Shown here: positions 34,947-37,703 of the stretch, piece after piece
Layout of the letters: each line of letters opens with the position of its first letter
How positions within the stretch are numbered: the stretch's first letter is position 1
From: Bacteroides sp.
GTDB lineage: Bacteria > Bacteroidota > Bacteroidia > Bacteroidales > Bacteroidaceae
Length of the DNA stretch: 64,000 nucleotides
Reading direction: 5' to 3'
NCBI GenBank assembly: GCA_020861095.1
Contig: JAJBTC010000196.1
Location: 1-64,000, forward strand
Notes under the pieces: generated by a model
Seen by the model: the letters and a program-made list of their open reading frames with translations, nothing else
What the model was told of the DNA's origin: nothing
The model's database searches: none
Made by a program: the position numbers and the translations under genes

Positions 34947-34988
34947 AAAAAACCGGATATAAAGGAAATTCCTGAATATCCGGTTTTT
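34947..34988. terminator. Bidirectional terminator between DUF6624 gene and tRNA-Asn
   Basis: Stem AAAAACCGGATAT / ATATCCGGTTTTT with A and T tracts on both sides. It ends transcription from either direction. Confidence 0.8.
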
Positions 34989-34990
34989 CG

Positions 34991-35064
34991 CTCTTCCTCT
35001 TGGACTTGAACCAAGGACCCTCTGATTAACAGTCAGATGCTCTAACCAACTGAGCTAAGGAAGA
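34991..35064 (-). tRNA. tRNA-Asn (GTT), copy 1
   Basis: A 74-nt cloverleaf. Acceptor stem TCTTCCT pairs with AGGAAGA; D stem GCTC/GAGC; anticodon arm TCTGA-CTGTTAA-TCAGA gives anticodon GTT (Asn); T arm CTTGG-TTCAAGT-CCAAG; discriminator G. No CCA is encoded. The sequence is identical to the copy at 37570. The upstream promoter has TACTTTTG, with ATTG 20 bp further up. Confidence 0.97.
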
Positions 35065-35085
35065 ATGTTTGTTTCAATGCGATTG

Positions 35086-35093
35086 CAAAAGTA
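35086..35093 (-). promoter_or_regulatory. -7 promoter box of tRNA-Asn copy 1
   Basis: TACTTTTG with ATTG at 20-bp spacing. The same arrangement is found upstream of copy 2. Confidence 0.65.
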
Positions 35094-35354
35094 ATAGCTT
35101 ATTTTGATATATGCAATTTTTGAGAAATAAAAAATAGGAATTAAATCGTTAGCCGCTGGTTTATAGATAGATGGTGACTTTCACTATGGACGTCCGGAAA
35201 GTGACGGATCGTGGGGCGGTGAGATCCGTACCACGTTCTGCATATTCAAAAGTGTACCTACGCTCCTTCGGAAATTATTTACTTAAAGTTTTTGTATTTT
35301 CTGCCTTCACACCTTCACAGGGATATATAAGGTGTTGTATACGAAACTATTAAA

Positions 35355-35403
35355 TGTGAAGGCAGACTGTTTTTTATGCTTTCACCTGCTTTCACGCCTT
35401 CAC
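35355..35403. repeat. Left member of ~50-bp inverted repeat pair
   Basis: About 49 bp (TGTGAAGGCAGACTG... to ...TTTCACGCCTTCAC) recurs in inverted orientation at 37274-37322, with differences only around the T tract. A shorter copy of its end (TCTGCCTTCACA, 35300-35311) makes a local hairpin. It lies in the gene-poor segment between the two tRNA-Asn genes. Confidence 0.85.
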
Positions 35404-35532
35404 CGTGTATCGTCCGGGTTTGGGTTGACTGGTTGGAATGTATTCATCCTGTTACAGATAGTTCTCTCTTCCCTTTTGTTGAAAGAAAAAAAATGGTGAG
35501 TTGTTATCTGTATGATCTACTGGAAGTTCTGT

Positions 35533-35815
35533 AAGCACGTTCGATCCCAGCCCGACTTGTCCCGATTTATCGGGAGGGTAAGGAGAAGTGCAGGGAACCG
35601 GAGCGAGCCGCCACCCTGGGTATACACAGATGCGAAACAAAGAGTGCTGAAAGTACGACCGAAACTTAAGATGTTCCATTTCTTTCGATCGTACTTTGAC
35701 TGCGTCTACCGTTGGTTCAGCACTCACTTACGTATGCGGTTCGCAGCCCAGGGTGGTGTCAGACTACACTGCGTTTTGTCTTCCTGACCCTGGGCTGGAA
35801 TCGGCCGTGTTTCCA
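35533..35815. repeat. R4 MITE-like element with inserted R3 motif
   Basis: Ends GTTCGATCCCAGCCCG and CCCTGGGCTGGAATCGG are inverted relatives of the 20950 copy. Relative to that copy it has gained an R3 segment (GACTGCGTCTACCGTTGGTT, 35697-35723) and a small hairpin (TCCCGATTTATCGGGA), so repeats have inserted into repeats. Confidence 0.75.
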
Positions 35816-35867
35816 GCACTTAGAGATAGACCGATTTTTCCATGTGGAGACCGCTTCTTTTCCTGCT

Positions 35868-36131
35868 TTATAAATCTGCTGGTTTTATAATAAGCAGATT
35901 GTTATCTACGATTACATCTACCTGGCTGTTAATGGGAAAACCTACCCGATCGAGCCATACTCCCATCAGTCGCAGAAAAGGAATGGATTTGAGTCCGTTG
36001 CTGCTTTTTTTGTTGACTACGCTTTGGGAAGAGACAGTAAGCCGCCTGAGGTGCAGACTTTCATCTGAATTTTTGATCTTTAAGACTTTGGCTTTGAGAG
36101 ACTTTTTACCGGAGGCTTTCGCCGGGTTCAC
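35868..36131 (-). CDS. SymE-like toxin-family protein
   Basis: An 87-residue protein. The C-terminal half, IPFLRLMGVWLDRVGFPINSQ then VDVIVDNNLLIIKPA, matches the SymE_toxin domain (L-G-x-WL-xx-GF-xxG-xx-V-x-V-x-x-x-L-I-I). SymE is an AbrB-fold nuclease/RNA-binding toxin of type I systems. The basic N-terminus (KKSLKAKVLKIKNSDESLHL) carries a second strand-like segment. No ATG is in frame; a GTG at 36131 is the probable start, 19 bp from leader arm 3. It sits alone between two tRNA-Asn genes behind a structured leader and a TATCTTTG promoter. Similarity is recognised by eye, so the family call is probable, not certain. Confidence 0.68.
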   Translation of the reverse strand: MNPAKASGKKSLKAKVLKIKNSDESLHLRRLTVSSQSVVNKKSSNGLKSIPFLRLMGVWLDRVGFPINSQVDVIVDNNLLIIKPADL

Positions 36132-36345
36132 TTTTTTGGTAGTTCTTTTTAAACTGTTCGGTATAACAAAAAAATTAAAGGGTGAATAAAGAAAGGCAGG
36201 TCTCGCCGAACAGTTTACAATAACATAATATTATATATGTCACCAAAAAAGTTTCGGGACTTGCACCCGTAAGCCTGCCTTGTTTTCTTTTAAAATCTGA
36301 GAATGACATGTTATTAATATTATTTATATGTAAACTTATTCGGTA
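36132..36345 (-). ncRNA. Structured leader RNA of the SymE-like gene (predicted)
   Basis: Transcription from the box at 36349-36356 would begin near arm 1 and give a leader of about 210 nt. Arm 1 (36304-36345), arm 2 (36206-36242) and arm 3 (36150-36161) are related. Arm 2 can pair with arm 1 over most of ~37 bp, or with arm 3 as a perfect 12-bp stem (AAACTGTTCGG core). A loop hairpin with a 7-nt loop (ACGGG-TGCAAGT-CCCGA) resembles a tRNA T arm. An extra 8-bp match (36193-36200 with 36274-36281) would form a pseudoknot with the arm 1-2 fold. Regulatory role is inferred; no known riboswitch family was recognised. Confidence 0.5.
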
Positions 36346-36348
36346 CTG

Positions 36349-36356
36349 CAAAGATA
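36349..36356 (-). promoter_or_regulatory. -7 promoter box of the SymE-like leader
   Basis: TATCTTTG on the minus strand matches TAnnTTTG, with ATTG 21 bp upstream as a weak -33 box. The predicted RNA starts at leader arm 1. Confidence 0.6.
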
Positions 36357-36404
36357 GGAAATAGTTACCAAAATCTGCAATAAAATCTTTCATTAATGAT
36401 CAGG

Positions 36405-36545
36405 TATTTAGTTTACAATGTATCTATAGTGCTATAGACACGAGCGATTCCAGCCCAGAGTAAGGTGAAGTGTAGAGGAACGGAGCGAGCCGCCACACTG
36501 GATATAAAAATGATGATAAAAAGTGAGTGCTTCCAGCACTTTTCA
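36405..36545. repeat. R4 element, partial copy
   Basis: The left part of the R4 element (GTTTACAATGTATCTATAGT, then GCGATTCCAGCCCAGAGTAA, GAGCGAGCCGCCAC) matches 20950 onward; the right half is missing or degraded. A second shared segment (GTTTGGGTTGACTGGTT) lies at 36659 and again at 35418. Confidence 0.7.
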
Positions 36546-36987
36546 TATTTGCTGGTCAGATCTATCCATTGCCTGGTTGACTTCGTAAATCTGCGATTCA
36601 GGAGTCTTTTATAGGAAATTGTGTCTGATCTCCTTCCACTAAAGAGAAGAAAAACCGTTTGGGTTGACTGGTTAAGTGTATTCATCCTATTATAAAGAGG
36701 GGGCTTCATCACTTTGGTTGAAAGTCAGTTTGATAGAAAGCCTACCCTTCCTGCTTTCCGAAGCAGTGATCGATGTAGTAATCGAATAGTAAACGACGAA
36801 ACTATATATGGAAGCGATATACGATAGAGAAGAACTTATCACGTACACTCTGCGCCCTGAGAGGGGTATACCCAACAGACATAGTGGTTTGCGACTTGTT
36901 CCGACTGTCCTGTAGGTGTGTAGGCATTACTGTATCCGGGTGTTCTTTACAGGATAGGGTATTGTTTATTCCATGGTATCTTAGTAA

Positions 36988-37075
36988 TCCCATGCCATGG
37001 GACAATACGTCCCGCGGCGTGAAACGATATATCCCACGTCGTGAAACAATAAATCCCACGGCGTGGGATCAGGAA
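36988..37075. repeat. 22-bp tandem repeat, four units
   Basis: Units start at 36988, 37010, 37032 and 37054. The form is TCCCACGGCGTGAAACAATA plus two bases, with the first and last units closed into palindromes (CCCATGCCATGGG, CCCACGGCGTGGG). There are no unique spacers, so it is not a CRISPR. No gene is seen from 36405 to 37569; the ORFs there are read through repeats. Confidence 0.85.
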
Positions 37076-37273
37076 TGTATCTGTATACGTGCAGATGGTT
37101 TCCTGTGTGTTGACAGCCGTTCAACAGTGTTTTTCTTCGCTTTACCTGAAAGAGTCCGGGTATCTCTCTCATGAACTCTTCCGGAACAGGGAATTGTATA
37201 TGCGTTTGGTTATTTTGTTGAAGTAATTGATTGATAATTAATTGAATATTGTATTTAGGTAAGCTGTTTATGT

Positions 37274-37322
37274 GTGAAGGCGTGAAAGCAGGTGAAAGCA
37301 TAAAAAAGTAGTCTGCCTTCAC
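37274..37322. repeat. Right member of ~50-bp inverted repeat pair
   Basis: Reverse complement of the segment at 35355-35403 with about two differences. The pair encloses roughly 1.97 kb containing two R4 copies, the SymE-like gene, its leader and the 22-bp array. Confidence 0.85.
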
Positions 37323-37569
37323 ACATAAAGAACTGATATAAAGTTATTTCGTGCTATCGGTGAAGGCGTGAAGACAATAATCATAAAAAATCTAAGTAGA
37401 AAATCCGGAGGAATGGTACATGAAGGAAAAGGAATGAAAAGTCCGGTAGATAGTATAGAAAGAAATTACAGGATATTCCGGAGTCTGTTTACCCGGACGG
37501 TGGTACGCTGCAAAGCGGAAGAGATACTTTTCATAAAAAAAGTACGACCACCGGGTCATACCTTTTTTG

Positions 37570-37643
37570 CTCTTCCTCTTGGACTTGAACCAAGGACCCT
37601 CTGATTAACAGTCAGATGCTCTAACCAACTGAGCTAAGGAAGA
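37570..37643 (-). tRNA. tRNA-Asn (GTT), copy 2
   Basis: Identical over 74 nt to copy 1 at 34991, with the same anticodon arm and no encoded CCA. The upstream ~50 bp is also similar to copy 1, including TACTTTTG (37665-37672) and ATTG at 20-bp spacing. Here that region also holds the divergent promoter of the PfkB kinase gene. Confidence 0.97.
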
Positions 37644-37664
37644 ATGTTTTTCTCAAATGCGATG

Positions 37665-37672
37665 CAAAAGTA
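37665..37672 (-). promoter_or_regulatory. -7 promoter box of tRNA-Asn copy 2
   Basis: TACTTTTG with ATTG 20 bp upstream, the same as for copy 1. Confidence 0.65.
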
Positions 37673-37695
37673 ATAGGATATTTTGAAATATGCAA

Positions 37696-37703
37696 TATCT
37701 TTG
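37696..37703 (+). promoter_or_regulatory. -7 promoter box of the PfkB kinase gene
   Basis: TATCTTTG 16 bp before the ATG at 37720. It overlaps the -33 region of the divergent tRNA promoter. Confidence 0.6.

Follow-up and report, generated by a model that had tools for sequence, protein, structure and literature searches.

A non-autonomous, MITE-like element between two tRNA-Asn genes of Bacteroides sp. and its probable kinship with VapE helicase elements

RESULTS

The tRNA-Asn locus and the ends of the enclosed element

In the window (the whole 64-kb stretch of Bacteroides DNA that was analyzed), two tRNA-Asn(GTT) genes lie on the minus strand in direct orientation, 2579 bp apart start-to-start, the orientation and spacing being those given by the first-pass annotation. 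They are a distal copy (34990 to 35064) with its own promoter copy upstream, and a proximal copy (37569 to 37643) whose promoter region adjoins a PfkB gene. Each is part of a 134-bp direct repeat made of the tRNA-Asn gene and its promoter (34984 to 35117 and 37563 to 37696), and the repeats are 91 to 94% identical. The DNA between them had been described as two R4 repeats, a SymE-like ORF, and a 22-bp array bracketed by an inverted sequence of ~49 bp, with no integrase or transposase. We found all of these features between the inverted ends, and neither an integrase nor a transposase in the ORF list of the island. In an Rfam search, tRNAs were the sole credible matches; PADLOC gave no defense-system match except a CRISPR-associated PrimPol domain, and a search of plasmid and phage collections with the element gave no match.

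The ~49-bp inverted pair is present at 35355 to 35403 and 37274 to 37323; identity is 96%, with no mismatch over a 34-nt core. A 26-nt core of the sequence had two matches in the window and none in 100 shuffles. The pair is only a part of the true ends. In an alignment of 14 ends, the conserved sequence was ~128 bp long, and therefore the window element, which we call E1, spans 35277 to 37401 (~2.1 kb), between both tRNA-Asn genes. Its left end (35277 to 35404, plus strand) has the outer TTTACTTAAAG, the word CCTTCACA CCTTCAC, the reverse complement GTGAAGG at +53, and the word again at +75, +85, and +93; the right end (37273 to 37401, minus strand), identified by an end-model match and the end alignment, is an inverted copy of the same design. 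An inner box, GTATCGTCCGGGTTT, lies at 35407 to 35421 (plus strand) and is a variant of (T)GTCTCGTCCTGRTTT. Across the aligned ends, the order was the outer TTTACTTAGAGTTTTT, GCCTTCACGCCTTCAC, then GTGTGAAGGC ~45 bp on, and finally TTTCACC-TTTCAC-GCCTTCAC; in general form, a word stands twice, its reverse complement follows, and the word then recurs two or three times. The inverted ends are putatively two facing iteron clusters.

The core of E1 has a GC-rich palindromic tandem array of 22-bp units (37002 to 37065, plus strand, or 36996 to 37075 in a broader delimitation). Similar arrays were found in E2 and E5, and different ones in the other copies. GC-rich palindromic arrays of ~22 bp with locus-specific units were also seen inside gene-less elements (L044, 3000 to 3075; L045, 2775 to 2860; L048, which holds E5, 2610 to 2690; L049, 490 to 570), and outside the ends in the rumen VapE elements L110, L111, and L114.

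The SymE-like gene lies in a nested insert

E1 was colinear with its sister element E5 except for 35485 to 36656, a nested insert missing from E5 that contains an R4 copy (35575 to 35624, plus strand), the SymE-like ORF, and a second R4 copy (36457 to 36506, plus strand). The insert is flanked by a direct duplication on the plus strand, with copy 1 (~66 bp) at 35418 to 35484 and copy 2, ~78% identical to it, at 36657 to 36724. The SymE-like ORF (35868 to 36131, minus strand; 87 aa read from GTG) matches the SymE toxin family (PF08845; E 5.8e-6) but at 26.7 bits, just under the curated 29-bit cut-off. The genome has further SymE modules, on C182, C76, and C104, whose DNA is 83 to 86% identical. 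Among the element copies that we read, SymE was found only in E1 and in the orthologous copy of the sister species G048. Located within the nested insert and with copies elsewhere in the genome, SymE is thus a passenger. The first-pass annotation had suggested a non-autonomous toxin-bearing element; non-autonomous is supported by the facing end pairs elsewhere and the empty sites described below, while toxin-bearing is misleading for a gene carried by a nested insert.

The R4 repeat is dispersed independently of the element ends, at ~60 places genome-wide, and the R4/SymE region had 61 matches in its own genome. The apparent original start codon of SymE (36162 to 36164, minus strand) is ATA, the corresponding codon being ATG in paralogues, which are intact copies elsewhere in the genome. 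The SymE leader (36195 to 36285, minus strand) has AAGGCAGG...CCTGCCTT together with a T-arm-like ACGGGTGCAAGTCCCG hairpin, and this is kept in the G048 copy; its folding scored a z of only -1.9.

Copies of the ends occur at nine loci of the source genome

The ~49-bp sequence had 13 copies in a genome-wide search of the source genome (G000), and a profile built from the aligned ends recovered 15 ends at nine loci. Six of these loci are two-ended (contigs C187, C91, C181, C106, C105, and C1), with the ends facing each other in all six, and the enclosed DNA is 0.5 to 1.9 kb long and differs among the loci. The genome-wide check that the first-pass annotation had proposed turned up five more loci where the ends face each other around other cargo. 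No VapE or HU remnant was detected by tblastn in E1 to E5 or E7; the window copy, without VapE between its ends, is hence non-autonomous. These elements resemble MITEs in having several copies with matching inverted ends, no mobility gene of their own, and empty sites in relatives. The island ORFs lack the integrase, with att sites, that marks a SaPI-type phage satellite. A tRNA-targeted genomic island would have a short att repeat at the tRNA 3′-end; here, the repeat is the whole tRNA plus promoter, 134 bp, and there is no integrase.

No target-site duplication was found around E1 to E5, E7, or the VapE elements tested, and only E1 has the 134-bp tRNA repeats. The idea that long flanking duplications characterize the whole family was rejected, as they are confined to the tRNA copy. 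The absence of target-site duplications argues against a standard DDE transposase, yet decay would give the same picture. Element positions are shared between the source genome and G048, which makes these copies old, and neither a fresh transposition event nor a circle was seen; mobility rests on the copies and the empty sites. In the G048 orthologue of E5 (L103), the left outer end was lost by a deletion running into the neighboring VapE gene.

Empty sites in relatives

The first-pass annotation had also called for a search for an empty site at the tRNA-Asn/PfkB junction, and relatives do have one. Almost every genome of the genus with an intact locus has a tandem tRNA-Asn pair, spaced 17 to 40 bp, upstream of PfkB, and its short spacer holds neither an island nor a second promoter; the exceptions are a few genomes with a single tRNA-Asn gene at the locus or a contig edge there. 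The split pair with the island was found only in the source genome and G048. The tandem pair is ancestral across the genus, the lineage-specific part being the second promoter only, and the proposed origin in a tRNA duplication that became a repeat trap is not supported, since the pair is the genus rule. An own promoter copy and terminator for each tRNA-Asn gene was likewise seen only in the source species and G048. A second, cleaner empty site lies between an exonuclease gene and mnmE, which are adjacent in G017 and G077 and have E4 between them in both the source genome and G048. Taken together, the island is a real non-autonomous element, neither a toxin island nor a tRNA-born repeat trap.

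A shared end design at a subset of VapE loci

The end model also had weaker matches in further members of the genus. These, too, were facing pairs, and the pair in G023 had a 393-aa VapE/DUF3874 gene between its ends. We then used a word-blind detector that requires a word, the same word 7 to 9 bp on, its reverse complement at 42 to 63, and the word at least twice at 62 to 106. It gave 70 matches in 474 kb of sequence (the window plus element and VapE loci), against zero in 2.05 Mb after shuffling; in the window, there were exactly two matches, 35304 (plus) and 37374 (minus), which are the ends of E1. A relaxed version gave 37 matches in 326 kb of VapE loci and 1 in 936 kb of shuffled sequence. 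In 331 kb of other real sequence, it gave 20 matches, 16 being ends of this element family and 4 looking like chance.

The 393-aa VapE set comprised 50 named loci from Bacteroidaceae and Prevotella, and the relaxed-detector matches at these loci were almost all less than 900 bp from the VapE gene. Inverted ends around the gene had alignment scores above 40 at 18 of 47 loci (null 95%, 32; the null tail reaches up to 77 because some loci share words), and the downstream end often began 0 to 10 bp past the gene. For the 690- to 700-aa genes of gut Bacteroides that encode BT4734_N, VapE, and DUF3874, inverted flanks exceeded the null 99% level (38) at 14 of 42 loci, with words including GATCTAGC, ATCTGCAAC, TATTGTCACT, and CTGTCACC. 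Words vary among elements (CCCTAC, CCTTCA, TCTTCA, CTCTAC, CCGACA, ACCTCC, and others), and the two ends of one element agree. The word was common to VapE pairs with at least 80% identity (6/6) but not to pairs at 70 to 80% (0/4). Both ends were recognizable at fewer than half of the VapE loci, and at several loci (L202, L213, L225, and L219), a short facing pair lay beside, not around, the VapE gene. Inside the inspected elements, we saw neither a transposase nor an integrase; such ends were found with VapE genes repeatedly and with no transposase. The 393-aa VapE protein matched PDB chain 7pds, "Similar to D. nodosus vapE," with an E value of 1.4e-7.

Three VapE elements of gut Bacteroides (L254, L263, and L267) also enclose an HU-HIG (PF18291) gene, so that they contain two genes and no recombinase. 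At their inner edge, the window-type ends have the box GTCTCGTCCTGRTTT, which was also present at the inner edge of both ends of one of these, L263 (G021), and at no other scanned locus. At the site of L263, the relative G060 retains a degenerate end remnant, and we accordingly rejected it as a precise empty site. Compared with the ends of VapE elements of other species, the window-type ends share the design and the inner box, the sequences not being identical. The source genome has only two VapE genes. One of them has a window-type copy, E5, ~80 bp away, but E5 is only beside the gene, and no element of the window-word family in the source genome has a VapE gene between its ends. A second end family, with the word TCTCTCAC, was seen next to a lone CTTCAC-type end in the source genome (L109, contig C129, 1 to 1230); the same word brackets the VapE gene of G048 C24 (L264), an orthologue of that on C153 of the source genome.

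DISCUSSION

We consider the island to be, probably, a non-autonomous copy, MITE-like in form, of a mobile element; the self-encoding relatives of this element would carry a VapE-family (primase-)helicase, not a transposase. For VapE-domain proteins, a role as replicative helicases of mobile elements is predicted (PMC5862659), and the staphylococcal helicases SaPI Rep and SCCmec Cch2 bind origin iterons beside their own genes and start replication there (PMC7581432). In the simplest model, drawn by analogy with these staphylococcal helicases, an element-specific VapE helicase might bind the iterons of both ends, and unwind and copy the DNA between them. The copies would then re-enter the chromosome, gene-less copies such as E1 being moved in trans. 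The SymE/R4 block came in later as a nested insert. Helicase-driven movement is inferred, as is the route of re-insertion; VapE helicases are not known to have strand-transfer activity.

A more static reading has no mobile element: the facing iteron clusters would be fixed replication-start or regulatory sites related to VapE, spread by ancient duplication and maintained by vertical descent. The elements shared by the source genome and G048 at the same sites would fit this, and the facing pairs located beside a VapE gene at L202, L213, L225, and L219 resemble a SaPI origin (PMC7581432). We nevertheless regard it as unlikely, as ends at nine unrelated loci in a single genome, a clean empty site at exonuclease/mnmE, variable interiors, and one end design in copies with and without a gene are what mobile families typically show. 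Slightly less plausible again is that the island is an ordinary MITE dependent on a conventional insertion sequence, whose DDE transposase would move it in trans, as for BrickBuilt/MITEPgRS. Size, intergenic sites, copy number, and the internal ~22-bp tandem array are all BrickBuilt-like; what speaks against it are the ends, which are 128-bp multi-word clusters rather than 12 to 22 bp and recur with VapE genes and with no transposase, and the lack of a target-site duplication. That a tRNA-Asn duplication trapped unrelated repeats would account for the 134-bp direct repeats flanking this copy only and for the dispersed R4 and SymE repeats nested here, but it is very improbable, since nearly all relatives have the tandem pair without an island and since, at loci remote from tRNA genes, these ends surround other DNA; the other eight loci largely refute it.

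Beyond the window element as a copy related to VapE elements, we tentatively raise a broader possibility, to which we give less than even weight: an undescribed class of Bacteroidales transposable elements without transposase or recombinase, in which the sole gene in common would be that of a self-loading VapE (primase-)helicase, sometimes accompanied by an HU-HIG protein. This helicase may recognize the iteron word specific to its element in both mirrored ends and move itself as well as gene-less copies such as E1. We found no VapE transposable element in the freely accessible literature searched, and the family looks new among searchable published elements. In gut Bacteroides and Prevotella, VapE genes are numerous, and their annotation says no more than "virulence-associated." Mirrored iteron ends with a word specific to each element would provide a function for these genes and would explain a class of intergenic repeats. 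They may also bring to light mobile DNA whose spread relies on a helicase and not on a transposase, and the end word versus the helicase reading it would be a clean, swappable test system.

Among known repeats of the same order, PINSR of Prevotella intermedia (PMC4755523) is also a highly repeated intergenic sequence, but it is 188 bp long, has ~180 copies, and lacks terminal inverted repeats, and we rejected it as the same family on its ends. BrickBuilt/MITEPgRS (MITE464) of Porphyromonas gingivalis (PMC4596501) is closer, being a protein-free, intergenic Bacteroidales element with ~10 to 20 copies, inverted ends, and internal 22- to 23-bp tandem units. Its ends, however, are ~12 bp and match IS5-family elements, whereas those described here are 128 bp, consist of repeated words, and match VapE helicase elements; membership was rejected because the end alignment, set against the published table, showed no ~12-bp IS5-type GAGACC..GGTCTC ends. 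SaPI Rep and SCCmec Cch2 (PMC7581432) and the VapE/VirE primase-helicases (PMC5862659) share with the present elements an AAA+ primase-helicase beside short repeated words. SaPIs and SCC have dedicated recombinases and a one-sided origin, in contrast to the elements inspected here, which have no recombinase and carry mirrored clusters at both ends.
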